Below, one piece after another: positions 10,035 through 50,313 of a stretch of 64,000 nucleotides of DNA. Each line of letters opens with the position of its first letter. The first letter of the stretch is position 1. The DNA comes from Planctomycetota bacterium (GTDB taxonomy: Bacteria > Planctomycetota > Planctomycetia > Pirellulales > Lacipirellulaceae). Under the pieces are notes generated by a model. The model made no database searches. It saw only the letters and a list, made by a program, of their open reading frames with translations, and was not told the DNA's origin. The stretch lies in assembly GCA_029259945.1 (NCBI GenBank), contig JAJDEF010000017.1, positions 62,001-126,000 on the forward strand, read 5' to 3'. The translations under genes were made by a program, and so were the position numbers.

Positions 10035-10144
10035 GTCTGGCGGTGCCAGGAAGGTGTTGCGCTTGTTCCTGCCTACAAATCCCCTGTACGGCGTAACCCG
10101 CAAAGTAGGGGGCGTCAACCGGGCTGAAAAGGGGTTCCGGGGCG

Positions 10145-10173
10145 TTGTCGGAGTCTGCTGGGGGGGCTATAAT
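10145..10173 (+). promoter_or_regulatory. predicted sigma-70 promoter of the FabZ-ACP-FabF cluster
   Basis: TTGTCG at 10145-10150 and a perfect TATAAT at 10168-10173 are separated by 17 bp. Initiation near 10180 would give a leader of about 150 nt before the first FabZ-like gene. The spacing and -10 match are good; the -35 matches four of six consensus bases. Confidence 0.6.
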
Positions 10174-10328
10174 CGCCAGTTCGCTATTTTGCCAAAGCAG
10201 CCAAGATACCGCCACCCATTATCACTAATAGGGCGAGGTGACTGCGCTTCTTTGATTCTCTCGCAAGAGAGGCTCACCTAACTTTTTGAGTTCCTTTTAG
10301 CCCCCCCCAATTTCTAGAGACACCGTCT

Positions 10329-10823
10329 ATGCGATTTTTGCTTCTGGATCGGATCTGCTCCTTCGAGCCCGACAAGGAACTCACGGCGGTAAAGAATGTT
10401 TCGCTAGCCGAAGAATACCTCGCGGATCACTTTCCGGAGTTCCCCGTGTTACCCGGCGTCTTTATGTTGGAGGCCGCCACGCAAGCGGGTGCCTGGCTGG
10501 TGCGACTGAGTGAGAATTACACACACAGCATCGTCGTGCTACACGAAGCTCGAGCAGTCAAGTATGCCGACTTTGTTACCCCAGGCCACACGTTGAACAT
10601 GCGAGTTGAACAAACCAGCAGTGACGATCGTTTTGTCAAATTACGATTTCGAGGTGAAGTCGAAGGCCGTTTGTCTGTGAGCGGACGTTTAGTATTGGAA
10701 CGCTATAACTTGGCTGATACCGAACCCTTTCAAGCAGGCCTTGACGAGAGAATGATCGCCTATCAGCGAGGTCAGGGAGAACTATTAACCCGCGGCACGG
10801 ATATTGTGGCGGCAGTCTCCTAA
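10329..10823 (+). CDS. 3-hydroxyacyl-ACP dehydratase, FabZ-like
   Basis: A 164-residue hotdog-fold protein. The active-site helix and histidine occur in HFPEFPVLPGVFMLEAATQ, with the FabZ-type His and Glu both present. The family dehydrates 3-hydroxyacyl-ACP in fatty-acid elongation. It is first of four genes (dehydratase, ACP, dehydratase, ketosynthase) on one strand, behind a good promoter at 10145-10173. The 139-nt gap to the ACP gene is long enough for an internal signal. Because a second homologue lies two genes downstream, this gene may have a specialised substrate or form a heterodimer. I do not assign fabZ or fabA. Confidence 0.85.
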   Translation: MRFLLLDRICSFEPDKELTAVKNVSLAEEYLADHFPEFPVLPGVFMLEAATQAGAWLVRLSENYTHSIVVLHEARAVKYADFVTPGHTLNMRVEQTSSDDRFVKLRFRGEVEGRLSVSGRLVLERYNLADTEPFQAGLDERMIAYQRGQGELLTRGTDIVAAVS

Positions 10824-10962
10824 TTCATGGGATCGTAATAGCGATCGCACACCGACGAAAAAAATCGAAACAGCACTGTAAAAATTTTAGCCACATGGCG
10901 AGTTCGTCGCTGAAAAAGCGAGTTTTCGTTTTACACACAATCATGTAGAGGTTGATATCACC

Positions 10963-11349
10963 ATGCCAACAGAAGACGAAATTTTTGACAAAGTACGCGA
11001 AGCACTCATGGACGCCTTAGGGGTTGATGACGATGAAGTGGTTCCGACCGCAACGCTCCAGGGCGATCTCGATGCCGAATCGATCGACTTTCTTGATATC
11101 GTTTTTCGCCTGGAAAAAGCCTTTGATATCAAGATCGAGCGCGGTGAATTATTCCCTGAAGACATCCTGACGAACGCCGATTACGTCAATGACGGCAAAG
11201 TCAACGAAGAGGGTATTGTCAAGCTTCGCGAGCGAATGCCTTTCGCCGATCTCACCAAGTTTGAGTCCGAACCACTGGTACAAAACCTTGGCCAGCAGCT
11301 CACCGTGAAAGACATGTGCAACTTCGTGGCACACAAACTGGCAGCTTAA
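10963..11349 (+). CDS. acyl carrier protein
   Basis: A 128-residue carrier protein, longer than the usual 77-90. Residues 1-70 carry the ACP helix bundle: IFDKVREALMDALGVDDDEV and DLDAESIDFLDIVFRLEKAF, where the Ser of ESIDF is the predicted phosphopantetheine site (the usual DSLD has become ESID). The last 50 residues are an extra acidic/basic tail that is not part of the standard fold. It sits between two FabZ-like genes and upstream of fabF, so it probably serves this local synthase set rather than housekeeping FAS. Confidence 0.88.
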   Translation: MPTEDEIFDKVREALMDALGVDDDEVVPTATLQGDLDAESIDFLDIVFRLEKAFDIKIERGELFPEDILTNADYVNDGKVNEEGIVKLRERMPFADLTKFESEPLVQNLGQQLTVKDMCNFVAHKLAA

Positions 11350-15257: not shown

Positions 15258-16367
15258 CTAAAACAGACGCTGTTCAAGTCTGCGTACGCGCCGCTTCAAT
15301 TCATGCGTGACAGCTTCGCTAGTCTCGCCAGTTGCAAACACCGTCGACACGGGGTCTCCTGGCTCAAGACGTGTCTCAGACGTAGGGATATCAGCAATTT
15401 GAGGGCACCAAGGGTCTCCCGCTTCTTCGAGTAACCAAGCCGTCTGCTCGGGCGTTATCACGGCAGCCGATTTTGCATACAGAATCGCTTTGCCAACGAA
15501 CGGTCCCTCGCTAGGGACTGGGCTTCGCGAAGTTGCTTTCGTCATTTGGTAAGCTGAGAAATGATCGGCCAGGGCGTTCACTCCGTGAGCCCTCTCGACG
15601 ACCTCAACCGAGGCTGTGTAGCGAGGGTTCACTTCAATCGTCCAAAGATCCTCGGCATCAAGCATCAGATCGACGCCAACTAAGCCTTCTAATTCGAAGG
15701 TTGTACTCAAAACGGCACCTAACCTTCGTAGTTGTCGACCAACTGTCGTCGAGACTGGCCAAGGTGCTATCGATCCGCAGTACTGAAACTCTTTGGCACC
15801 CGTCCACGATTCGCCAACCAACTGCTGAGACACTCCTAGCAATGTCCCACCCACATAGACCGCCGAAAGCGCAATCCCCGGCACTCGCCGCTGAACGAAG
15901 TTTCCATCCGAACTTTCTGCTAGCTCTTGCACCCCTGCGCCGCTGCTTGCCTGATAAGTCTTAGCCAACCACTGCCCATCGCTAGGTAAATCGTTGCGAT
16001 AAGGACGAGTTTCTGGAAACAGCAAACCGGCTTCACCGAGCGCTGCGGCCAGCGCCAAGGGCGACCGTATCTTGCGTAAAGTCTTGCCTGAAGTCCCCAA
16101 CAGCCGATGCTCTGCAGCTATCGCATCAACCAGCGCCGGATGATTTTCTAAAGCTCCGGTATACATCCACCCATCACATGCACACTTGGTTAGCCAGTCA
16201 GGCAAGCCTTCGGGGTAGGGCGAAATTCGCGTTGCCGGGCAAGCACGTTGCAAGTCTGCATCGGCGAATAGATCAGCCGTCACGACTCGATACCCAGCAC
16301 GCATCGCAGAAAAAGCAGCCGATCGGGCGCTGGCCCCTACGATCGCAATGGTCGCCCTATCGTCCAT
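15258..16367 (-). CDS. ATP-grasp protein linked to the H4MPT C1 pathway
   Basis: A 369-residue ATP-grasp protein of the COG2232-like group (predicted ATP-dependent carboligase), a group that recurs with H4MPT-dependent C1 genes in methylotrophs and planctomycetes. The N-terminus has ATIAIVGASARSAAFSA (Rossmann-like), the middle carries ATP-binding features (LAKTYQASSGAGVQ), and EVNPRYTASVEV is the metal-binding C-terminal motif. Its ATG overlaps the MazG-like stop by one base (TGATG), so the two are translationally coupled. Mch lies 27 kb away in the window. The substrate is unknown; a role in H4MPT or cofactor synthesis is inference. Confidence 0.75.
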   Translation of the reverse strand: MDDRATIAIVGASARSAAFSAMRAGYRVVTADLFADADLQRACPATRISPYPEGLPDWLTKCACDGWMYTGALENHPALVDAIAAEHRLLGTSGKTLRKIRSPLALAAALGEAGLLFPETRPYRNDLPSDGQWLAKTYQASSGAGVQELAESSDGNFVQRRVPGIALSAVYVGGTLLGVSQQLVGESWTGAKEFQYCGSIAPWPVSTTVGRQLRRLGAVLSTTFELEGLVGVDLMLDAEDLWTIEVNPRYTASVEVVERAHGVNALADHFSAYQMTKATSRSPVPSEGPFVGKAILYAKSAAVITPEQTAWLLEEAGDPWCPQIADIPTSETRLEPGDPVSTVFATGETSEAVTHELKRRVRRLEQRLF

Positions 16368-30899: not shown

Positions 30900-31850
30900 T
30901 TGAACGTGTCAGACGCCCCCACCAACCGAGGTGCCCTGCCAGGACGTGATCGCTGGGACGAGCTTTACCCTTTTGCTTCGCACTATCTCGATCTAGGTTG
31001 CAGCGGATATCACTACCTCGACGAATCGCCAACGGATGCTGCCGAAGCGCCCACGTTGCTCTTTGTCCATGGCAATCCCTCGTGGTCGTTCCACTGGCGG
31101 CGGCTGATATCGGCCCATCGCGGCTCGTATCGCTGCATCGCCCCCGATCATCTCGGCTGCGGTCTTAGCGATCTACAACCTCATCCGCTGAGCTTAGCAG
31201 ACCATATCGACCACTTATCGCAATTGATCGAATCGCTCGACTTACAACGCATCACGCTGGTCGCTCAAGATTGGGGCGGTGCGATCGGGCTAGGTAGCCT
31301 TTTAAAATTGCGCGATCGGTTCGAACGAGTCACCCTATTCAACACAGGCGCCTTTCCGCCTTGGTTTATTCCATGGCGAATCCGAGTGTGCCGTTGGCCA
31401 ATCGTCGGGCGACTCGCGCTGCAAGGTGCGAATGCCTTTTCTCGGGCTGCGTTGCGAATGACGCTGGCGAAAACCTCACGCCTTGATCCACGAGTTGAAG
31501 AGGCCTATTTGGCTCCCTACCACGATTGGCAGCACCGTGGGGCCGTCTATCAGTTTGTGAAAGACATCCCGCTTTCAAAGCGTCATCCGACTTGGAAAAC
31601 CCTCGAACAGATTGAAGCAGGGCTACCTAGCTTGGCTGAAATGCCAATTCAATTGATTTGGGGAATGCAGGATTGGTGCTTTACGCCTGCGTGTCTCGAT
31701 AAGTTTTGCAGCACTTGGCCCCAGGCAGAGGTGCATCGATTAGCGGATGTGGGCCACTGGGTAGTCGAAGATGCTCCCGAGCAGGCAGAATCGCTGCTGA
31801 CTGCTTGGCTAGAAAGAACCACCCTCCAATGGGATCGTGAATCCACGTGA
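30900..31850 (+). CDS. alpha/beta hydrolase, OleB/haloalkane-dehalogenase-like
   Basis: A 316-residue alpha/beta hydrolase. It has the oxyanion motif FVHGNPSWSFHWR, nucleophile Asp in LVAQDWGGAIG, and catalytic His in DVGHWVVED, all as in haloalkane dehalogenases and OleB (beta-lactone decarboxylase of head-to-head olefin synthesis). OleC and OleD homologues lie 10 kb away, which makes OleB the better reading. The start is TTG at 30900 as written. The stop overlaps the next gene's GTG start by 4 bases (GTGA), so it is coupled to the CitG-like gene. Substrate is inferred. Confidence 0.75.
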   Translation: MNVSDAPTNRGALPGRDRWDELYPFASHYLDLGCSGYHYLDESPTDAAEAPTLLFVHGNPSWSFHWRRLISAHRGSYRCIAPDHLGCGLSDLQPHPLSLADHIDHLSQLIESLDLQRITLVAQDWGGAIGLGSLLKLRDRFERVTLFNTGAFPPWFIPWRIRVCRWPIVGRLALQGANAFSRAALRMTLAKTSRLDPRVEEAYLAPYHDWQHRGAVYQFVKDIPLSKRHPTWKTLEQIEAGLPSLAEMPIQLIWGMQDWCFTPACLDKFCSTWPQAEVHRLADVGHWVVEDAPEQAESLLTAWLERTTLQWDREST

Positions 31851-32779
31851 AACCGCAAACCACCCCGACTGGAAATTCACACCCTTGTACCCTTGGCGAG
31901 TGTGCAACGTTGGCTTGCATTTGGGAAGCGACTGCCGCCAAGCCGGGAAATGTCTATCGGGGTGCCGATTTCGACGACATGACCTACGCCGATTTTTTGA
32001 CTTCCGCCGTGGTGATCGGACCAATTTTGGGGCAGGTCGCTAAGCAGGGCGTAGGTCAGACGGTGCTACAGGCAATCCAAGCCACCCGAACGGCCGTGGC
32101 GACCAATACCAACCTGGGCATGATGCTACTGACGGCCCCCCTAGCAGCGGTGCCGGCGGGCCAACCGTTGGCTACCGGTGTGGCCAAGGTGCTCTCTTCG
32201 TTAACCGTTGAGGACACACAGGCCGTTTACCAGGCGATCCGCATTGCACAGCCTAGCGGGCTCGGGGAGGTTCCGGTAGCAGACGTACGAAAACCCGAAA
32301 TTCCGCAACGATCGCTGGTCGAGGCAATGCGTCTCGCAGCCGATCACGACTTAATCGCACTGCAATACGTCAACGACTTCGCCCAAGTATTTCAAGCGGC
32401 TGAATGGATGGAAAATGGTTTGCGCCACGGCTGGCCGCTTAGCGAAACGATCGTCTACGCTTTTTTACAGCAGTTGGCGGATTTTCCGGATAGCCTAGTC
32501 GTGCGAAAATGTGGTTTAGAACTAGGCGAGAAGATTCGGCGTCAGGCGGCAAAAATACTCGGTGTGGGTGAACCAGGAGATCCTGCTTACCTAAGTGCTG
32601 TCCAGGATTTTGATTTTTGGCTTCGTGCAGATGGGCACCGACGGAACCCGGGCACGTCGGCAGATATCATCGCAGCGGGACTCTTTGTCTTGCTCCGTGA
32701 ACAACGGCTAGAATGGCCGGTGGCATTTTATGGCAGTGTCGCAGGGAGTTCGAAGTCGAGTAAGGAACTCATCCTATGA
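31847..32779 (+). CDS. CitG-like triphosphoribosyl-dephospho-CoA synthase homologue
   Basis: A 310-residue protein of the CitG/MdcB superfamily. The signature KPGNVYRGADFDDMTYADF near residue 26-45 and TNTNLGMMLLTAPLAA near 85-100 match this family, also ADVRKPEIPQRSLVEAM. CitG makes a CoA-derived prosthetic group, but homologues (orf5 in methylotroph clusters) recur with H4MPT C1 genes and are thought to act in that cofactor system. It starts at GTG 31847 overlapping the hydrolase stop, and its end overlaps the PTPS-like start by 4 bases (ATGA), so the three genes form one operon. Confidence 0.78.
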   Translation: MKPQTTPTGNSHPCTLGECATLACIWEATAAKPGNVYRGADFDDMTYADFLTSAVVIGPILGQVAKQGVGQTVLQAIQATRTAVATNTNLGMMLLTAPLAAVPAGQPLATGVAKVLSSLTVEDTQAVYQAIRIAQPSGLGEVPVADVRKPEIPQRSLVEAMRLAADHDLIALQYVNDFAQVFQAAEWMENGLRHGWPLSETIVYAFLQQLADFPDSLVVRKCGLELGEKIRRQAAKILGVGEPGDPAYLSAVQDFDFWLRADGHRRNPGTSADIIAAGLFVLLREQRLEWPVAFYGSVAGSSKSSKELIL

Positions 32780-33261
32780 GCGAACAGTATCGAGTACGAA
32801 TTGAAAAAGAACGGCTTGTTTTTAGTGCCGCTCATTTCATTACCTACGACAACAATGTGTGCGAACCATTGCATGGCCACAACTATCATGTCGCTGCGGA
32901 GGTGCATGGACCGTTGGACTCAAATCACTATGTGATTGATTTCATCATGCTGCGAGATGTATTGCAGGAGATTGTGGATGCATTGGATCATCGGATGCTG
33001 CTTCCCACAGGGCACGCGACCATTCGAGTGCAAGAGGAAGGGCTAGAAGTCCTGGTCACTCATGGAAAACGGCGCTGGGTGTTTCCTCGCGAGGATTGTG
33101 TCTTGTTGCCTGTGGTCAATACCACGGCCGAGCTGCTTGCCCACTATATTGCTCAACAGTTGCTAGACGGGCTTGAGAAGCGTCTAGGCCAACGACCTTC
33201 GCACCTGAGCATTGCGGTCGACGAGTGCGATGGCCAGTGGGGCATCTATGAAACCGAGTAA
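32776..33261 (+). CDS. 6-pyruvoyl-tetrahydropterin synthase/QueD-like protein
   Basis: A 161-residue PTPS-superfamily protein. The zinc histidines are in SAAHFITYDNN and LHGHNYHV; the catalytic Cys is in NVCEPLHGH; the DH motif is ALDHRMLLP and the terminal Glu is in VDECDGQWG. The family works on dihydroneopterin triphosphate, giving tetrahydropterin, carboxy-tetrahydropterin (queuosine) or related products. It overlaps the CitG-like stop by 4 bases, so a pterin role for H4MPT synthesis is attractive. No queuosine genes are in the window. The exact product is unknown. Confidence 0.85.
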   Translation: MSEQYRVRIEKERLVFSAAHFITYDNNVCEPLHGHNYHVAAEVHGPLDSNHYVIDFIMLRDVLQEIVDALDHRMLLPTGHATIRVQEEGLEVLVTHGKRRWVFPREDCVLLPVVNTTAELLAHYIAQQLLDGLEKRLGQRPSHLSIAVDECDGQWGIYETE

Positions 33262-38784: not shown

Positions 38785-40569
38785 TTAGTCGTCGATTTTG
38801 ATATTCAGGTCTTTGAGTTGCTTGCGATCGACTTCGCCCGGCGCTTCGGTCATCAGATCGGTCGCCTTTTGTGTTTTGGGGAATGCGATGCAGTCGCGAA
38901 TATTGTCGAGTTTGGCGAAAAGCATCACCCAGCGATCGATGCCCAAAGCAATCCCGCCGTGGGGTGGTGCCCCATATTGCAACGCATCGAGCAAGAAACC
39001 AAAACGCTCTTGCGCAGTAATTTCGTCGATGCCCAACAACCCAAACACTTTTTGCTGGATGTCGGCATCGTGAATTCGGATGGTGCCCCCGCCTGCTTCG
39101 CTGCCATTGATCACTAAGTCGTAGGCCTGCGCCCTGCACTGACCAGGATCCGAATCGAGCAGCCCGACATGCTCTTCCAGTGGCGCAGTAAATGGGTGGT
39201 GCATCGCCTGCCAGCGTCCCTGGCCGCCAGCCGACTCCGCCTCGTCGTCGTACTCAAACATGGGGAACTCGACGATCCACGAGAAATTCATGGTGGCAGG
39301 ATCGTAAAGCTCCATCTCTTTGCCGATTTTGCACCGCAATGCGTAAAGTGCTTTGCAGGTGACTTCGTACTTGTCGGCGACAAACAGCAGCAAGTCGCCG
39401 GGCTCGGCACCCATCCGCTCGCCAAACTTCGCCAGCAGTTCGGGAGTAAAGTTTTTAGCAATCGTTGAATTCAGGGTTCCATCTTCTTCGACACGGAACC
39501 AAGCCAAACCCTTCGCGCCATAATCGGCAACGAATTTTGTTAGCGCGTCGATACCACGACGCGAGTAGTGCTCGGTGCCTTTCTTCGCATTGATGCCGCG
39601 TACCCGACCCCCTGAGCCGGCCACGGCACTGAAGACACGAAACTCGGCCTCAGACGCCAAGTCGGTGCAATCCGTTAACTCGAGCCCGAAACGCAAATCA
39701 GGCGCATCGTGCCCAAATCGCTCCATCGCTTCGTCGTAGGTCATCCGCGGCAACGGCGTGGGAACCTCGATTCCCAACTCTTCTTTAGCGAGCTTCACGA
39801 CCAAACCATCAATGATGCCGAGGATATCGTCCGTGTCGACAAAGGTCATTTCCAGATCGAGCTGGGTGAATTCCGGTTGGCGATCGGCGCGAAGATCTTC
39901 GTCGCGAAAGCAGCGAGCCACCTGGATATACCGGTCGTAGCCAGCAATCATCAAAATTTGTTTATACAGCTGTGGAGACTGCGGCAGGGCGTAGAACCCA
40001 CCGCGATGCACCCGACTAGGCACCAAATAGTCACGCGCACCTTCGGGGGTGCTGCGTCCGAGTACGGGTGTTTCGATATCGATAAAATCGTGTCCAGCAA
40101 AGTAGTCACGCATGCCCTTGATGATCGAAGCCCGTTGCATCATCACCTGCTGCATCTCGGGACGACGCAGGTCGAGATAGCGATGCTTCAAACGCAGGTC
40201 TTCGCCAGGCGCTTCGTCCGCACTCGGCGAGACAGGCGGTGTCAAACTCTTGTTGAGCAGCTTGAATTCGGTAGCGCGAAGTTCGATGGCACCGGTCGCC
40301 ATTTTACGGTTCGCCATCCCCTCGGGTCGAGCAGCGACAAGGCCGGTGACTTGCAGCACGTATTCGGGGCGCAACGACTTGCTTGCCTCGATCGCTTCGT
40401 CGGGAGTGTCGGGCGGATTAAAGACGATTTGTGTCAGGCCATAACGGTCGCGAAGGTCGACAAACAACCCGCCCCCATGATCGCGATAGGTATCGAGCCA
40501 GCCACAAAGGGTGACCGTCTGTCCGATATGATTTTCGCCTAATTCACCACACGTATGAGTTCGAAGCAC
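38785..40569 (-). CDS. aspS: aspartyl-tRNA synthetase
   Basis: A 594-residue bacterial-type AspRS. The N-terminal OB domain (QTVTLCGWLDTYRDHGG) binds the anticodon; class II motif 2 region is PQLYKQILMIAGYDRYIQVA with RCFRDEDLRADRQPEFTQ, and motif 3 is GIALGIDRWVMLF. The insertion (GAD-type) domain expected in bacterial AspRS is covered by the length. It stands alone on the minus strand with a GC-rich hairpin-like sequence after its stop. Confidence 0.97.
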   Translation of the reverse strand: MLRTHTCGELGENHIGQTVTLCGWLDTYRDHGGGLFVDLRDRYGLTQIVFNPPDTPDEAIEASKSLRPEYVLQVTGLVAARPEGMANRKMATGAIELRATEFKLLNKSLTPPVSPSADEAPGEDLRLKHRYLDLRRPEMQQVMMQRASIIKGMRDYFAGHDFIDIETPVLGRSTPEGARDYLVPSRVHRGGFYALPQSPQLYKQILMIAGYDRYIQVARCFRDEDLRADRQPEFTQLDLEMTFVDTDDILGIIDGLVVKLAKEELGIEVPTPLPRMTYDEAMERFGHDAPDLRFGLELTDCTDLASEAEFRVFSAVAGSGGRVRGINAKKGTEHYSRRGIDALTKFVADYGAKGLAWFRVEEDGTLNSTIAKNFTPELLAKFGERMGAEPGDLLLFVADKYEVTCKALYALRCKIGKEMELYDPATMNFSWIVEFPMFEYDDEAESAGGQGRWQAMHHPFTAPLEEHVGLLDSDPGQCRAQAYDLVINGSEAGGGTIRIHDADIQQKVFGLLGIDEITAQERFGFLLDALQYGAPPHGGIALGIDRWVMLFAKLDNIRDCIAFPKTQKATDLMTEAPGEVDRKQLKDLNIKIDD

Positions 40570-40655: not shown

Positions 40656-41663
40656 CTAGGCTTGCTCGGCCAGCCAACGGCTAAGCCGCTGCATACCTTC
40701 GGACGCGGAAATACGGGGTTCGTAGCCAAAGTCGCGTCTGGCAGCCGAGATGTCGAACCAATGGGATGTGGCAAGCTGTGCCGCCAAAAAGCGGGTCATG
40801 GCGGGTTCGCTGCGGATTCCGAGCAAACCGTAGGTGGCTTCAAGCAAGGCCCCCACGCGCCAGGCTGCTTGCCGAGAAATCGATTTTTTCACCGGTGCCA
40901 AGCCCGCTAGGGCCAAGATTTCGTCGATCCACTGCCAACAATCGACCGGCTCGCCCTGGCTGAGAAAGTAGGCGTTTCCAGCAACCGGCGAGTTCTCTTG
41001 GGACAGGGCTTCACCCGCCTGCAGATGGGCCTCCGCCGCGTTTTCGACGTAGATCATATCGACCAAGTTGGCTCCCGTGCCGACCCGTCGTAATCTTCCT
41101 GCCTTGGCCTTGGCGATCAAGCGAGGGATGAGATGCTGGTCGCGAGGGCCCCAAATCAAATGAGGCCGAAGCGCGCACGTGCGAAGTTGCTCGCCGTTAG
41201 CTTGCAGGACGCGCTGTTCTGCAATGGCTTTGGTCGAGGAGTAATGACTACGGTGTCGTATCAGCCAATCGAGGGCAACCGGCACCGACTCGTCCACACC
41301 ATTTTGGTCTTCACCCGCAAAAGTAACACTCGGGCTGCTTGTATAAATCAAACGCGAAATACCATGCGTAAGGCAACCGTGCAGGACGTTTTTGGTTCCA
41401 TGCACGTTGGCTTGGACGTAAGGCAAGCGTTGCACCGAAACACCAGGCCGTGCAGCGACATGGAAAACCAAATCGACCCCATCGCATGCCGCGACGACGG
41501 CACCTTGATCGGCGAGGTCGCCTCGAACAACTTCAACCCCAAGTGTTTCCAGCTCGGGGTAGGCTCGACGTCCGAAACTTCGGACTCGATCGCCACGAGC
41601 GAGAAGCTGCTCGACCATATAACGGCCCAGAAATCCGCCGCCGCCAGTGACTAGGGTGTGCAT
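40656..41663 (-). CDS. oleD: OleD-like NAD(P)-dependent reductase
   Basis: A 335-residue short-chain dehydrogenase/3-beta-HSD family protein. N-terminal TGGGGFLGRYMVEQLLARG is the Rossmann nucleotide motif; YSSTKAIAEQ provides the YxxxK catalytic pair. In head-to-head olefin synthesis OleD reduces the 2-alkyl-3-ketoacid made by OleA to the beta-hydroxy acid. It follows the OleC-like ligase by 8 nt, which supports the Ole assignment. Alternative: a sterol-type dehydrogenase. Confidence 0.75.
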   Translation of the reverse strand: MHTLVTGGGGFLGRYMVEQLLARGDRVRSFGRRAYPELETLGVEVVRGDLADQGAVVAACDGVDLVFHVAARPGVSVQRLPYVQANVHGTKNVLHGCLTHGISRLIYTSSPSVTFAGEDQNGVDESVPVALDWLIRHRSHYSSTKAIAEQRVLQANGEQLRTCALRPHLIWGPRDQHLIPRLIAKAKAGRLRRVGTGANLVDMIYVENAAEAHLQAGEALSQENSPVAGNAYFLSQGEPVDCWQWIDEILALAGLAPVKKSISRQAAWRVGALLEATYGLLGIRSEPAMTRFLAAQLATSHWFDISAARRDFGYEPRISASEGMQRLSRWLAEQA

Positions 41664-41671
41664 GAGTGGGG

Positions 41672-43468
41672 CTAGGGGCTGGGGGCTAGGGGTTGTTGAG
41701 TGGCCCAGGTGGTGAGTTCTTCGCGATTGATTTTGGCGTTGTGCCGTACGTCGACCGGCAACGAGGGGTGGAAAAGAACGTGTCGTATCTCTTGAGTGCG
41801 CTCGTGCTTCGCCGCGAGTTGCAGCACTTCGTCGCTGAGGGTCTGGGAGCTTGCTTGGCTCTTTTGGATCGGTTCGACGATGATGACGGGAGTTTGCTGG
41901 CCACGTTTGCCGATTCCAACAAGCGCCGAGCGCGCAACGGCAGAATGCGTATTAAAAATCGATTCGCAAGGAATCGTATACATAATGCCGCTTGCTGTCT
42001 TCACGCGATGGGCCTTTCGGCCGCAGTACCAAAAGCGGCCATGGTCGTCAAAATAGCCAACATCGCCCATACGATGCCAGTGAGTGTTTTCATCGACTAT
42101 TTTGGCAATCGGGTTGTGATCGGTAGAGCTAAGACGCATGTACTCAGGCGAGACTTGAGGCCCACGGACGATCAGCTCGCCAATTTCGCCGACCGGCATC
42201 GGATTGCAGTCGTCGATCATGGCAATCGGGTCATCAGTGATCGAAATCACTCGCCAATCGATCGTAGCGAATTTTTTACCAACACAGACACCGGCTCCAC
42301 GATCGGTAAGCGTCGCTGTTTCGTCAAACACTTCTCGCGCAGCGATACTTGCCACAGGCAAGCTCTCGGTAGCCCCGTAGGGGGTATGCATCTGGGCACC
42401 CGCACTGACACAAGCCAAGGTGCGCCGAAGCACCTCGGCCGGCACAGGCGCCCCGCAAGAAAATACCTTGCGAAGTGTCGGAATCATTTCACCCGTGCTC
42501 TGACAGAATGCGCTGAGCTTTCGCCAAACAGCCGGCGAGGCGAAAGCTTGCGTGACTTGCCAATCGTGGGCAGCGGCAAGAAGCTTGGTGGGGTTTGCCG
42601 TGGCGGGACGCGAAAAATCGATGTCCGGAAAAACCGTGGTCACGCCCATGGCCGAATTGAATAGCCCAAACAACGGAAAACAGGAGAGGTCGGCCCCCCC
42701 CGGCTGAATATCATAGTGCTCGCTAATTTCTGCCACTTGGGTGTCGAACATCTGGTGCGAATAAAGAACTCCCTTGGGCGGGCCCGTGCTGCCACTGGTA
42801 AAGATGATGGCGGCAGGGTCGGCGGGCCGAGTCACAGGGAGAGTCTGCCGCGAATGTTGCCCTAGCTGCAAAAGTTGCTTCAGCGTTTTGCCACCCCAAA
42901 ACCAACGTCGACCGACGGTCACATTTGTTGTGGAGTTCGGAAACCGAGTTCGCAGAAGTGTGCGGACAGCCTGCGCAGGACTGATGGCAACGAAGCCCTC
43001 AGGATCGGTGGAAGCCAGGCAATCGACCAAATGCCGACGACCCATGCCGGGATCAATCAAGACGGTGGTCGCGCCGCAGCGCAACAGGGCAAACACCAGC
43101 TTGACGAATTCGATCCCTGGTCGCACCAATAAAACGAGGCGCGTCCCCGGCGTGATTCCCAATTCGACGAGCCCTCGGGCAAGTGCCGTGGCGTCTTGCT
43201 CAAGCTCGGCAAAGGTACAGGTGGCATAAGAATTTTTCCCCGCCACGTCCCCGCGACCAGGACAGACGACGGCAACCGCCTCCGGCATTTGCTGGGCAAA
43301 GCGAGTGAGACGATCAGCTACATTGAGCCGATCAGCAGAGCGACAGTCCTGAGATGTGAGACGAGCGGTCGACATGTGCCCATTGTGTCGACCCGGTTTG
43401 AAAGGGGGAAGGGGGAGGGTAGAAATGGAAGCTGCCTCGGACTGGGAGGACTTGGTCGTTAGCTGCAA
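41672..43468 (-). CDS. oleC: OleC-like AMP-dependent beta-lactone synthetase
   Basis: An ANL-superfamily adenylate-forming enzyme of 598 residues. The AMP-binding signature is IIFTSGSTGPPKGVLYSHQM, the motif TPYGATESLPV is the OleC-type A5-like region, and MGDVGYFDDHGRFWYCGRK is the hinge-domain motif. OleC converts beta-hydroxy acids to beta-lactones with ATP. The frame to 43468 overlaps the mch stop by 10 nt; a second start MSTARL at 43375 leaves a gap of 83 nt. The C-terminal coding end is formed by a CCCCTAG-type repeat. OleA is not in the window. Confidence 0.78.
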   Translation of the reverse strand: MQLTTKSSQSEAASISTLPLPPFKPGRHNGHMSTARLTSQDCRSADRLNVADRLTRFAQQMPEAVAVVCPGRGDVAGKNSYATCTFAELEQDATALARGLVELGITPGTRLVLLVRPGIEFVKLVFALLRCGATTVLIDPGMGRRHLVDCLASTDPEGFVAISPAQAVRTLLRTRFPNSTTNVTVGRRWFWGGKTLKQLLQLGQHSRQTLPVTRPADPAAIIFTSGSTGPPKGVLYSHQMFDTQVAEISEHYDIQPGGADLSCFPLFGLFNSAMGVTTVFPDIDFSRPATANPTKLLAAAHDWQVTQAFASPAVWRKLSAFCQSTGEMIPTLRKVFSCGAPVPAEVLRRTLACVSAGAQMHTPYGATESLPVASIAAREVFDETATLTDRGAGVCVGKKFATIDWRVISITDDPIAMIDDCNPMPVGEIGELIVRGPQVSPEYMRLSSTDHNPIAKIVDENTHWHRMGDVGYFDDHGRFWYCGRKAHRVKTASGIMYTIPCESIFNTHSAVARSALVGIGKRGQQTPVIIVEPIQKSQASSQTLSDEVLQLAAKHERTQEIRHVLFHPSLPVDVRHNAKINREELTTWATQQPLAPSP

Positions 43469-44400
43469 AACGAACGGGTGAGGACCTCCTGGTTCAATTC
43501 GCCAAACGTAAACGAGTTGCCTGTGTCGAGATTCTCGAACGTGATTTTTGCAGGGCTGAATAGCAGCGGATCGACTTGATAGAAGTCGTTGCCGTAGGTG
43601 GCAAGCACCTCGGCAAAGGGGCGGCCATAATCGCGAGAGGCCGAGCTGGGAGTTTGCAGACCAACTTTTTGCAGCGTTTCGTCGTCGCCGTGAACTTCGA
43701 GAGTTACCTCGCCGCCGTAGAGAATGGCGTCGTTGGCGCGCCCAATCGCTACAAGATCGTTGTCCGCCACCGAAGGCAGTGGGGCAGAGCCTTGGCCTCG
43801 CACGATTTTCGAAAGATCAAAACCGAGTTCATGCAACTTGTGGAGTGCGGTTTCGACGCTACGAGCAACCACTTGCAACGTACCGGCGATACTGCTGGTG
43901 GGGGCAACAAGCAACGTAAGGTCGCTAGGCCTGATGTGGCACTTCGCAGCGAGTTGGCAGCAGACATCATCGCTGGGCAGCTTGCCCGACTCAAGCACAC
44001 CCACACACACCGCAGCCGACTCGCGATAACCAATGTCGGCAAACAAGGGTTCGCAACCCGCAGCCGCACGCATGGGGCCAGAGCCCATCGCGAAGAATCC
44101 CTCCTCTTTAATTTCCCAACCGGCGTATTGCGATGCCATGCAGGCAGCCACAGGTTGATCGGTTGCAACCGAAACCAGCCGACATAAGCCGGGCACGGTT
44201 TCCGTAGAATCAAGCTCTACCGTTGCAAGGTCGGCGAGACAAACTTTGGCGAGCAGAATTCCCGCTGCCTGGCTGCCCAGCACCTCGATGCCAAAATCGA
44301 GGAGCGTGGTACCGCAGGACAATCCGTGAGAGGCGATGTTGAGTCCCGCAGCAGACGCTAGGATTTCGTCACAGAGCGTTGCTGCTCGTTGATTAAGCAT
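43459..44400 (-). CDS. mch: methenyl-H4MPT cyclohydrolase
   Basis: A 313-residue Mch, which interconverts methenyl- and formyl-H4MPT in the H4MPT-dependent C1 pathway. The family motifs are clear: PVAACMASQYAGWEI, FFAMGSGPMRAAAG, DNDLVAIGRANDAILYGG and VTLEVHG. In bacteria this gene is a marker of H4MPT C1 metabolism known in methylotrophs and planctomycetes. It is first in an operon with oleC and oleD, which is unexpected. Fae, mtdB, fhc and other partners are not in this window. Confidence 0.93.
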   Translation of the reverse strand: MLNQRAATLCDEILASAAGLNIASHGLSCGTTLLDFGIEVLGSQAAGILLAKVCLADLATVELDSTETVPGLCRLVSVATDQPVAACMASQYAGWEIKEEGFFAMGSGPMRAAAGCEPLFADIGYRESAAVCVGVLESGKLPSDDVCCQLAAKCHIRPSDLTLLVAPTSSIAGTLQVVARSVETALHKLHELGFDLSKIVRGQGSAPLPSVADNDLVAIGRANDAILYGGEVTLEVHGDDETLQKVGLQTPSSASRDYGRPFAEVLATYGNDFYQVDPLLFSPAKITFENLDTGNSFTFGELNQEVLTRSFCS

Positions 44401-44496: not shown

Positions 44497-46662
44497 TTAA
44501 TTCTTCTCGGCTTCCGCTTGGCGAGCTTGCTGGATTCTTACGGCGATTCCAGAAATCGCAGGGTCGTCAGGGCGGAGTTGTTGCATTCGCTGCAGGGCCT
44601 TAGCCGCTTGGTGCCAACGATGCTGTTTTTCGCAGATCAACGCCAAGGCGAGCCAACTGTCGAACGATTCTGGGGCCAGTTGGCAGGCTTGCTGAAATGC
44701 TTCGCGCGACTCATCTCCTCGGTCGACGAGATAGAGCAACATTCCTAAACGATAGAGCGTGGGAACACGGTTGGGTACAAATCCAAGATCGCGCCGGAGT
44801 AGCTCGACTTCTTGCTCGCGAAGCTCGCGAATCCTTTTGGAATCGCCCCCCAACTCGTCTAATAGCGTGGCAAGCATATCGCGGACGCCCGACAAATAGG
44901 GTTCAAGGCGGATGGCATTTTCAAGCGAATTTTGCGCTGCCGAGGTATCGCCCTGCATACGAGCCAACGCGGCAAGGTTTAAGTGCGCACTGGCTCGGTC
45001 GAGAACGGTTGTCTGCGAAAGCCGGTATTCTCGCAATGCCCGATCATAAGCATCACGGTATTCGGCCTCGACTCCACCAGGGCCCAAAGCCACCAATCGC
45101 CGGGCTGCGGTGATGCGAACTAAGCGAACTGGATCATTGAGGCAATCGGAAATCTCTTTTGCCGACGAGCGCAACGACTGCTCAGAAATTGCACGAAGGG
45201 CTGCTGTCCGGACCAAGGGACTGGTGTCGTCGAAATGTTGCCGACATAGGCGATCAGACTTCGAAGTGCCGTAGTTGGCGAGAAGCTGGACTGCCGTTGC
45301 ACGGAGTATGTCAGAAGTGCCCTTCCGATCCAACAGATTGCTGACATGCGTAAGCCCCTGTGGAGATCCTGTGCGAGCTGCTGCAATCGTTGAAGCGTGA
45401 TGCGGGTCGTCGGCGCGACGATCACCGTACCACTGCCGAACATGTTCGGCTGCCCAGCCGGGTGACTCTTCTGGTTGAGTATGGCAATGATTGCAAGCGT
45501 TGGGCGTGCCTAGTTCAACCGTTAAGTCGGGACGGGGGACGCGAAGACTATGATCGCGGCGCGGGTCGATTTCCATATAGGTTTTTGCAGGCATGTGGCA
45601 CGACACACATTGCGAGGCAGCCACGTCGGTGTGGTGATGGTGCGTGGGAGAGTCGTATTTGCCCGACTGGTGACACTGCAGGCAGAGCGAATTGCCCTCA
45701 AATTTCAACTTCAGCGAATGCGGGTCGTGGCAATCGGTGCAACGAACGCCCTCGGCATACATTTTGCTCTGCAAAAATGAGCCGTAAACATAGACTTCGT
45801 CCAAGATTTGCCCATCCGCGTGGTAGAGGCCCGTGCTGAGAAGTGCCGGGTCGAAGGCATCGACAAAATGTTCGCCCTGCGAATGCCCTGGATGAATGGG
45901 TGAACGGCGTGAATGGCACGGGGCACACGATTCAATCTGATGGTCCGCAGATCCACCCTTGAGTGCATTCAATCCATAGCCATGATGGCGGTCCCAAAAC
46001 AAAGAACGGCTCTCCGCCAATTCGACATGCAAACTGCCTGGCCCGTGACACGCTTCGCAACTGACATCGATTTCAAAAAAAGTGGTGCGGTAGGTGTTAC
46101 TCGCCAAGTCAAAATTTTTCTGTAGATCGGTCGAATGGCACTCCGCACACATGGTATTCCAGTTTTGCCCCAGGCCCGTCCAATGCAGAGGATCGTCCGG
46201 CGCGAGTCGTTCATCCCGCACATCGGGCGGAGCGACATAAAACCACTCGTTTTTCTTGGTGTCCCACGAAACACGAAGCACTTGCACGCGGCCATCGGCA
46301 AACTCGACCATATATTGCTGAAGAGGGCGCAGGCCAAACGTGTACTTGATTTCGTAGTCGTGCTGCTTTCCATCGGGGCCTTCGGTGTTGACAAAATACT
46401 GTTGGCCTCGGCGAAAAAACCGGGTGGTCAGCCCCAATCGAGTGAACGAAGTATCGTTGAAGTCTGCCAAAACCGATTGCTCGCTGGCAATCTCCATTGC
46501 CCGATCATGATCAGAGTCATGCCACGAATTCAGTTCGGTTTGATGGCAACGGGCACAGGTTTCACGACCGACATAGTTGGTTTGCACGTCGAGGGGATAC
46601 GACCAATGCCAGTCGACTGCAACCGCAACCAGAAATAGGACCAGCAGCGTGCCCGACATCAT
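44497..46662 (-). CDS. octaheme c-type cytochrome with HEAT and TPR repeats
   Basis: A 721-residue membrane-anchored protein. An N-terminal hydrophobic segment (MMSGTLLVLFLVAVAVDWHW) acts as signal anchor. Eight heme-binding CxxCH motifs follow: CARCH, CAECH, CEACH, CAPCH, CTDCH, CLQCH, CVSCH and CNHCH (residues about 35-400). Then come HEAT-like helical repeats (LRATAVQLLANYG, VRTAALRAISE) and TPR-like repeats to the end (AHLNLAALARMQGDTSAAQNSLENAI). It is of the NrfA/multiheme-type family. The start at 46662 or 46659 is chosen for the signal; frame to 46776 is possible. Confidence 0.88.
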   Translation of the reverse strand: MMSGTLLVLFLVAVAVDWHWSYPLDVQTNYVGRETCARCHQTELNSWHDSDHDRAMEIASEQSVLADFNDTSFTRLGLTTRFFRRGQQYFVNTEGPDGKQHDYEIKYTFGLRPLQQYMVEFADGRVQVLRVSWDTKKNEWFYVAPPDVRDERLAPDDPLHWTGLGQNWNTMCAECHSTDLQKNFDLASNTYRTTFFEIDVSCEACHGPGSLHVELAESRSLFWDRHHGYGLNALKGGSADHQIESCAPCHSRRSPIHPGHSQGEHFVDAFDPALLSTGLYHADGQILDEVYVYGSFLQSKMYAEGVRCTDCHDPHSLKLKFEGNSLCLQCHQSGKYDSPTHHHHTDVAASQCVSCHMPAKTYMEIDPRRDHSLRVPRPDLTVELGTPNACNHCHTQPEESPGWAAEHVRQWYGDRRADDPHHASTIAAARTGSPQGLTHVSNLLDRKGTSDILRATAVQLLANYGTSKSDRLCRQHFDDTSPLVRTAALRAISEQSLRSSAKEISDCLNDPVRLVRITAARRLVALGPGGVEAEYRDAYDRALREYRLSQTTVLDRASAHLNLAALARMQGDTSAAQNSLENAIRLEPYLSGVRDMLATLLDELGGDSKRIRELREQEVELLRRDLGFVPNRVPTLYRLGMLLYLVDRGDESREAFQQACQLAPESFDSWLALALICEKQHRWHQAAKALQRMQQLRPDDPAISGIAVRIQQARQAEAEKN

Positions 46663-46855
46663 CTTGTAGGCTCGAGCTGATCGCAAAAAAATGCCGTCGG
46701 GTGCTAGGGTGAGCGTAATGAATCGCAATCTACTTGACCCATTGTAGCTACTGAGCCCAGAGGGGCCACTTGCCAATTTGCAAGAAGCGGGTACCCTGTT
46801 AAAAGTGAATTCGGCCCCAGCGGCAAGCTGGCGGGCCCCAGTGGCGAATGGCTCT

Positions 46856-48132: not shown

Positions 48133-48807
48133 TTAGCCGTTGCGACGGCGACGTCGTCGAGTCGCCAACCCGCAGAAGCCCAAAGCAGCCAAGCCAATGG
48201 TGGTCGGCTCAGGAACTACTGTACCACCATAAGTGGTCGAGAAGTTCTCACCACCACCACCAACGGTTACCTGGTCAAACGCCAGGAAATCGATCGTGCC
48301 TTCACCACCCGATGAGTACAAAACTCTCGCCAGATGATAAGGAGCCAGGGCATCGGTGTCGCCAGTATTCGTGTCAAAGACAGACCAATTCAAAGATGTC
48401 GCTGGGAGTGGATCGCCCACGAAAGTTGGGAAACTACCAACCGGATCATCGGGGGTAAACACATAAGAGCTACTGTTGGGTGAAAAGATCTCAAAGACCG
48501 TATGGGTCCAGGTATCTACCGAAGCCCCTGTCCCATCGGCTTGTCCGCCCCCGCTCCCACGAATTGGATCCAGAATGCCTCCTGTCGTTGCATTGACAAT
48601 GAGATCGTGGTTGAGGTACTCACTCGTACCGCCCGGAGACTGGGTATAGAAAATATCGACGTAACCACCAGCTCCAAGGCCTGCAAGGGCCGGATCCGTC
48701 GTGTTTTCTACAAACGTAACCGTCTGCTGGGCGGATGCAACCGTAGCAGTTGCGGCAAGAATCACGGTGGCAATCAAGTTCAAAAAGGAAAAACGTAGTT
48801 GATTCAT
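48133..48807 (-). CDS. PEP-CTERM protein, paralogue A
   Basis: A 224-residue secreted protein: signal peptide MNQLRFSFLNLIATVILAAT.., a beta-rich body of about 170 residues (FVENTTDPALAGLGAGGYVD, GGQADGTGASVDTWTHTV, FPTFVGDPLP), and a C-terminal PEP-CTERM sorting tail VVPEPTTIGLAALGFCG with an Arg-rich end. The exosortase system cleaves such tails for surface display. SD GGAG precedes ATG 48807. It is a tandem paralogue of the gene at 49663. Function of the body is unknown. Confidence 0.85.
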   Translation of the reverse strand: MNQLRFSFLNLIATVILAATATVASAQQTVTFVENTTDPALAGLGAGGYVDIFYTQSPGGTSEYLNHDLIVNATTGGILDPIRGSGGGQADGTGASVDTWTHTVFEIFSPNSSSYVFTPDDPVGSFPTFVGDPLPATSLNWSVFDTNTGDTDALAPYHLARVLYSSGGEGTIDFLAFDQVTVGGGGENFSTTYGGTVVPEPTTIGLAALGFCGLATRRRRRRNG

Positions 48808-48908
48808 AATAGGTAACTCCAAAAAAGGTATTGTTAATCAGTAGAAGTAAAAAAGTGCCATCCGAACGAAAAGTGGTTCGCCGATGACTTCAACGTGGCT
48901 GCTCGTCG

Positions 48909-49662: not shown

Positions 49663-50313
49663 CTAGCTGCGTCGTCGAGTCAACATCGAAGCACAGAGAC
49701 CAAAAGCGGCCAGTGCCATCGTGGCAGGCTCAGGAATACCGTAAGGGGTCGAAAAGTTCTCGCCACCACCACCAACGGTTGCTTGGTCAAACACCAAGAA
49801 GTCGATATTACCTGCGCCACCCGCTGAGTACAAAACTCTACCCAGATGATAAGGAGCCAGGACATCGGTATCGCCCACATTGGTGTCAAAGACAGACCAA
49901 TTCAAAGCTGGCGCTGGAAGTGGATCGCCCACGAAAGTTGGGAAACCCCCAACCGGATCGTACGTGGTAAACACATAAGAGCTGCTATTGGGTGAAAATA
50001 TCTCAAAAACCGTATGTGTCCAAGTATCCACAGCAGACGTTGTGGAATCAGCTTGTCCGCCACCGGCTCCACGAATTGGATCCAAGATGCCACCTGCTGT
50101 TGCATTGACAATCAGATCGTGGTTGAGGTACTCAGCTCCAGCAGTCTGAGTGTAGAAAATATCGACGTAACCACCAGCTCCAAGACCTGCAAGGGCTGGG
50201 TCAGTCGTGTTCTCCACAAACGAAACCGAACCCGCAGATGCAACCGTAGCGGTCGCTGCAAGGCACATCGCCGCAACAAGGCCAGCTACGAATTGTACTC
50301 TTCCAATTTTCAT
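49663..50313 (-). CDS. PEP-CTERM protein, paralogue B
   Basis: A 216-residue secreted protein: signal peptide MKIGRVQFVAGLVAAMCLAA, the same body as paralogue A (FVENTTDPALAGLGAGGYVD, LNHDLIVNATAGGILDPIRG, DTWTHTVFEIFSPNSSSYVF) and a C-terminal PEP-CTERM tail GIPEPATMALAAFGLCASML with RRRS end. GGGAGG lies 8 nt before the ATG. Intact family member; sorting by exosortase outside the window. Body function unknown. Confidence 0.85.
   Translation of the reverse strand: MKIGRVQFVAGLVAAMCLAATATVASAGSVSFVENTTDPALAGLGAGGYVDIFYTQTAGAEYLNHDLIVNATAGGILDPIRGAGGGQADSTTSAVDTWTHTVFEIFSPNSSSYVFTTYDPVGGFPTFVGDPLPAPALNWSVFDTNVGDTDVLAPYHLGRVLYSAGGAGNIDFLVFDQATVGGGGENFSTPYGIPEPATMALAAFGLCASMLTRRRS

Follow-up and report, generated by a model that had tools for sequence, protein, structure and literature searches.

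A 64,000-nucleotide window from a planctomycete of the order Pirellulales (family Lacipirellulaceae; assembly GCA_029259945.1, contig JAJDEF010000017.1, positions 62,001 to 126,000) raises the question of why genes of the long-chain hydrocarbon type, oleB, oleC and oleD, stand in the same units as genes of tetrahydromethanopterin (H4MPT) one-carbon (C1) metabolism. The window is part of the contig labelled C9, in an assembly of 3.48 Mb and 44 contigs that is 92% complete. According to passages in two ole surveys, OleA catalyzes a condensation, OleD a reduction, OleC the formation of a beta-lactone and OleB its decarboxylation (PMC7158056; PMC7064751). The answer considered probable here is that two of the three dispersed pieces of an OleABCD set lie in the window, each in a unit shared with H4MPT/C1 genes, and that two separable pathways share operons in an arrangement inherited within Pirellulales and shortened in this genome.

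The first unit occupies positions 40656-44400 of the minus strand, where mch, an OleC-type ligase gene and an OleD-type reductase gene run in one direction. Its first gene, mch (43459..44400), encodes methenyl-H4MPT cyclohydrolase, which interconverts methenyl-H4MPT and formyl-H4MPT; the product passes the cut-off of TIGR03120 (375.8 bits, cut-off 228.8) and scores 399.6 bits against PF02289. It is followed by an oleC-like gene for a beta-lactone synthetase (41672..43375; NF006754, 677 bits, cut-off 478, passed) and, 8 nt further on, by an oleD-like gene for a 2-alkyl-3-oxoalkanoate reductase (40656..41663; NF042423, 404.5 bits; NF042422, 389.7 bits). A preliminary description of this DNA had named these three genes with the same positions, strand and 8-nt spacing, and the profiles confirm them. 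It had also reported a 10-nt overlap between mch and oleC, which holds only if oleC starts at TTG 43468, the limit of its open frame. When the protein is aligned with six other OleCs, the N-terminus they share corresponds to ATG 43375 in this genome, the likely start of the gene, and 83 nt (43376..43458) are therefore left between mch and oleC. The TTG start appears unlikely and the overlap is probably a start-codon artefact. A scan for sigma-70-like promoters found 0 sites compared with 3.2 from shuffles, which weighs neither way on co-transcription.

About 9.8 kb away, a second unit lies on the plus strand, and the two units point towards each other. As the preliminary description had it, a gene for an OleB-type hydrolase heads this unit (30900..31850) and is followed by a CitG-like gene (31847..32779; PF01874, 216 bits) and a PTPS/QueD-like gene (32776..33261; PF01242, 75.2 bits; QueD model, 68.5 bits, below its cut-off of 89.25). 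Both junctions, oleB-like/CitG-like and CitG-like/PTPS-like, are 4-nt overlaps. Across 196 sampled genomes from the order, CitG and mch are both present in 147, both absent in 43 and discordant in 6, and CitG is therefore marked as a C1 gene; the CitG count covers 148 of 149 CitG genomes, G067 being scored as lacking CitG despite a weak match (E 3.1e-24). The proposal that both units pair ole genes with C1 genes is thus borne out for CitG and not for the PTPS-like gene, which stays by oleB where mch and citG are gone. Among the matches listed, six genomes of the same genus (G115, G127, G142, G162, G166 and G182) also have convergent oleB and oleC genes separated by 9-12 kb, an arrangement like that of the window. 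G127, G162 and G182 keep this arrangement though mch is gone from the neighbourhood of oleC.

Several lines of evidence bear on whether these are Ole proteins. The OleC-type ligase is set apart by profile from ordinary acyl-CoA synthetases, the best other long-chain ligase model shown giving 167 bits against its 677, and in the best segment it is 44% identical to OleC of Xanthomonas euvesicatoria and 39% to that of Shewanella carassii. The OleD-type reductase carries a Rossmann motif (GGGGFLG) and a YxxxK motif (YSSTK). An OleA, sought across the genome, was found on contig C35 (NF006720, 451 bits). Its twelve best solved-structure matches, which we take to be entries of Xanthomonas campestris OleA, have E values of 3.5e-52 to 1.1e-50, and the next is at 8.7e-17. 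The OleA pattern EPxx[AS]x(14,18)DxxNACL, taken from a passage of PMC7158056, occurs in this protein as EPATACSVHHGLRLPADCMIYDVSNACL at residue 98 and does not occur in the genome's FabH. Judged by sequence, a full OleABCD set is present, split over three places (CD, B and A). The four genes do not form one cluster in this genome, and clustering is not a defining feature of OleABCD chemistry.

For the hydrolase, the alternative is that it is an ordinary dehalogenase or esterase and that the pathway ends in a beta-lactone or some other lipid. oleB does not adjoin oleC here, the nearest solved structures of the protein are dehalogenase-like hydrolases, and published surveys take oleACD without oleB as beta-lactone clusters, as passages of PMC7064751 indicate. 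However, the protein reaches no haloalkane dehalogenase cut-off (137.6 bits against 241, 135.5 against 466 and 118.7 against 265). As a query it scores 183 bits against the OleB of a Xanthomonas ole locus and 224 against Shewanella OleB, and operon-encoded OleBs span 171-286 bits, fragments and one detached copy lying lower, while a true haloalkane dehalogenase (a protein passing a dehalogenase cut-off) gives 60. In a quick tree of 57 sequences, with one very long-branched dehalogenase as the only outgroup, it falls within the ole-operon OleBs, inside a Pirellulales group that holds the OleB-OleC fusion of G005; the OleB part of that fusion is 50% identical to the OleB of the window. The hydrolase groups with operon-encoded OleB, and a product other than the olefin is considered very unlikely.

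The junction between mch and oleC is where this genome departs from its relatives. The mch and oleC profile matches are 134 nt apart here, and the gap is mostly about 1 kb in other linked genomes. oleB was entertained as the content of this larger gap and rejected; the gap instead encodes a RimK/MptN-like ATP-grasp protein about 300 aa long. Of 40 mch loci from relatives, 38 have this gene immediately after mch; these loci, like the 40 oleB loci read, were picked to span families and not at random. The exceptions are G111 and G004, and two further mch loci from family f9 (L225 and L226) have no ATP-grasp gene either. The best curated match of this gene is MptN (215.8 bits, below the cut-off of 350), and it passes the RimK family cut-off (168 bits, cut-off 143.4). 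In this genome there is no ATP-grasp gene at the junction, and a search of the assembly gives one match of 28% identity (E 4.5e-4). Gene order in the relatives thus indicates that the unit is a shortened form of mch-ATP-grasp-oleC-oleD from which the ATP-grasp gene is gone. The mch-oleC-oleD unit of the preliminary description is linked as proposed and needs correcting to this reduced form. In Rhodopirellula solitaria CA85 (L233), mch, the ATP-grasp gene and oleC lie next to one another. One locus of the order (L165, G168) has mch and the ATP-grasp gene followed about 1.7 kb on by oleA and not oleC.

How widespread the linkage is was assessed in the 196-genome order sample, linkage meaning that oleC lies at most 6 kb downstream of mch and on its strand. 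Counts of match places for mch, oleC, OleA, oleB and CitG in this sample are from among the matches listed, and in fragmented genomes an apparent absence may reflect assembly loss. mch is found in 152 of the 196 genomes, oleC over cut-off in 141 and an OleA-type protein over cut-off in 150; the mch-oleC count covers 150 of the 152 mch genomes and 143 genomes with a listed oleC place, with partial matches only in two (G014 and G152). Both genes are placed in 111 genomes, on the same contig in 75, and they are linked in 65 of the 111, across 13 families. The second unit is conserved as well, its oleB-citG-ptps order being found in many families: oleB and CitG both occur in 115 genomes, on one contig in 93, and CitG lies directly downstream of oleB on the same strand in 91. 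They are on different contigs in 22 genomes, 11 of which belong to family f7. Among the 22, the two genes are truly unlinked in G003, G004, G008, G050, G083 and G172, since no citG stands beside oleB at the loci read. These order-wide counts put the linkage far above chance. In 12 sampled genomes from outside the order that have both mch and oleC, linkage was found in none (six have them on one contig at least 0.8 Mb apart, six on different contigs), and it therefore appears to be a feature of Pirellulales. The chromosomal history invoked by the preliminary description is, with 13 families involved, much deeper than a local accident.

If the genes are kept together, do they serve one pathway? 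The presence of mch and that of oleC are weakly or not associated. Of the 196 genomes, 111 have both, 41 mch only (that is, without a full oleC, a few holding oleC fragments), 30 oleC only and 14 neither (Fisher p 0.57; this and the other Fisher tests on gene presence ignore relatedness). Relatives that have lost one set of genes show the same separability. In mch-less genomes, oleB is followed by a PTPS-like gene without CitG in 10 of the 13 oleB loci read. The mch-less genomes G018, G035 and G126 have oleC-oleD beside dnaX, and five other loci have the order dnaX-mch-ATP-grasp-oleC(-oleD). The ole-less G019 has CitG and PTPS together without oleB, and mch-ATP-grasp occurs without oleC in G019 and G021. 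The genes of the lost pathway are absent from the shared units and the rest are kept, which fits two separable pathways sharing transcription units, and this is what the units look like.

A single pathway would mean that the Ole proteins act on a C1 cofactor or need H4MPT metabolism and that the genes are functionally bound. The recurrence of the same pairing in two separate units is consistent with this, as is the positive mch-oleC association that emerges once family f7 is excluded (odds ratio 2.9, p 0.012). Against it stand the genomes that have one gene and not the other, just counted, Ole motifs that are normal and the grouping of the proteins with operon-encoded Oles of organisms without mch in the 8-kb flanks examined. 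A single pathway is therefore highly improbable. The preliminary description had preferred shared organisation to a single pathway, and in this it was right; taken as a whole, its interpretation is partly supported.

Other results weigh, together with that positive association, against the reading of dispersed Ole genes in shared, inherited operons. OleC misses both OleC equivalog models (568 bits, cut-off 900; 514.7 bits, cut-off 850) and OleD falls below both of its own (404.5 and 389.7 bits against 580). Because of these scores, OleC and OleD are not filed under the Xanthomonas and Shewanella NCBIfam equivalogs; the top two profiles of OleD are nonetheless the OleD models NF042423 and NF042422. 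The ATP-grasp gene could sit in the unassembled part of the 92%-complete genome. mch and oleC are unlinked in 46 of the 111 genomes, on different contigs in 36 and on one contig in 10 (2 within 6 kb on opposite strands, 8 further apart), and linkage is often broken in the genus and family of this genome, with 14 of 31 genomes of the family linked. When the flanks of 11 linked loci from 11 families are compared, conservation extends to genes downstream of oleD in 5 of the families, and part of the conservation may therefore be general synteny.

The weak or absent association of the two pathways, the broken linkage and the conserved downstream lipid genes all speak for the strongest rival, a neutral inherited neighbourhood. 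Early in the history of the order, C1 genes would have landed by chance beside ole and lipid genes, and they would have stayed there through slow rearrangement and shared promoters, with no regulatory benefit. Yet in the same flank comparison, where mch and oleC are the selection criteria, the ATP-grasp gene is kept in 11 of 11 loci and oleD in 9 of 11, more widely than any flanking gene on the sense strand (at most 5 of 11). The pairing of ole with C1 genes in two independent units and the tight 4-nt overlaps of the oleB unit also sit poorly with chance, and the neutral explanation is judged rather unlikely. A selective account can be offered only tentatively: in Pirellulales, H4MPT-linked C1 metabolism and the synthesis of membrane hydrocarbons would form a single co-regulated physiological module, and selection would maintain the two operons, for example so that membrane composition follows the flux of formaldehyde or C1 units.

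Under the preferred reading of two separable pathways in shared operons, mch-oleC-oleD would most likely be transcribed as one unit and oleB-citG-ptps as another. Some genes of the hydrocarbon pathway would then be expressed together with some C1 genes, and oleA separately, from C35. The predicted first step is a head-to-head condensation of two acyl-CoAs by OleA, whose product OleD would reduce; OleC would close the beta-lactone, which OleB is predicted to decarboxylate to a long-chain internal olefin. The ATP-grasp gene would have been lost from between mch and oleC in this genome's lineage of mch-ATP-grasp-oleC-oleD.

The surroundings of the units offer further observations. Downstream of oleD, loci L118, L120, L126, L128, L129, L131 and L132 (families f2, f3, f12, f13 and f15) have a conserved lipid block of a ketoacyl synthase, two FAD oxidoreductases (amine-oxidase/desaturase-like) and FabZ-like and FabI-like genes, often with oleA next on the other strand. 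On C35, FabZ-like and FabI-like genes (L035:6794-8028 and 10039-11061) lie about 2 kb from oleA and are perhaps a remnant of this block; the ole pieces of this genome may be what is left of a lipid neighbourhood that was formerly larger. In the window, the gene downstream of oleD is aspS (38785..40569, minus strand), a neighbour only, linked within the genome's own family alone in the loci examined. Upstream of mch and outside the unit, a neighbouring gene encodes a multihaem cytochrome/TPR protein (44497..46776, minus strand). The open reading frame list also shows a pair of small, closely similar proteins whose C-termini are PEP-CTERM-like; their genes are separated by about 0.8 kb (48133-48822 and 49663-50313, minus strand). 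An ATP-grasp_3 protein with a weak MfnD match (15258-16367, minus strand; 24.4 bits, cut-off 400) is possibly the product of another cofactor gene.

Among known systems, the canonical oleABCD operon of Xanthomonas, Shewanella, Geobacteraceae and other Planctomycetota comprises the same four enzyme families. There, A, B, C and D stand together, in that order in most loci seen, whereas here CD, B and A are separated, and C1 genes accompany two of the three pieces. The same pathway, with an OleB and OleC homologous to those here, is encoded by the oleA-oleBC(fused)-oleD operon found in Micrococcus (described in part of PMC7158056) and in family f7 of the same order. Unlike the arrangement here, the f7 operon is fused and compact, its OleB is of a distant type in the tree, and mch lies on other contigs than oleC in 9 of 9 f7 genomes with both placed, among the matches listed. 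Loci L146, L149 and L150 display this compact form in an order otherwise with split ole genes.

A second comparison is with the archaeal-like H4MPT/methylofuran cluster of methylotrophs. The likeness consists of mch beside an ATP-grasp gene of glutamate-ligase type in the relatives' loci and of FhcA, encoded in this genome on C23 (TIGR03121, 757.4 bits), which is the basis for taking the formyltransferase/hydrolase complex to be present. Unlike in that cluster, the C1 genes here are scattered and share units with ole genes. In Methylorubrum and Methylobacillus, the ATP-grasp enzymes MyfA and MyfB are responsible for assembling methylofuran's glutamate chain, according to a passage of PMC8141765. 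The ATP-grasp gene of the relatives is likened to MptN and MyfB by family only.

All gene families involved are already known. Passages of earlier work record ole genes (PMC7158056; PMC10176705) and C1 genes (PMC5020050) in Planctomycetes. No description of the conserved mch/ole pairing was found in the literature searched, a search that left outside it most subscription papers, including the 2010 ole survey, where the pairing may still be published. An expression paper on R. baltica contained no passage on mch. The genome contexts of oleA set out in the relevant part of PMC7064751 are oleABCD clusters, oleBC fusions and oleACD without oleB, and the split, C1-linked form would add another. As described in parts of the two surveys, one sought oleBCD within 5 kb of oleA and discarded unsupported hits (PMC7158056), and the other, for its high-confidence set, required two or more ole genes in the flanks, no further than six genes away (PMC7064751). 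Since both sought oleBCD close to oleA, split ole sets of the kind described here would tend to be missed, and where oleCD stand without oleB the locus could be mistaken for a beta-lactone cluster.

In this planctomycete, then, as in many related ones, the genes for long-chain hydrocarbons are split and built into one-carbon gene units, in an arrangement that has been conserved. This arrangement offers a link between membrane hydrocarbons and C1 metabolism that can be tested across a large planctomycete group, for which the relatives that lost just one of the two pathways are natural controls.

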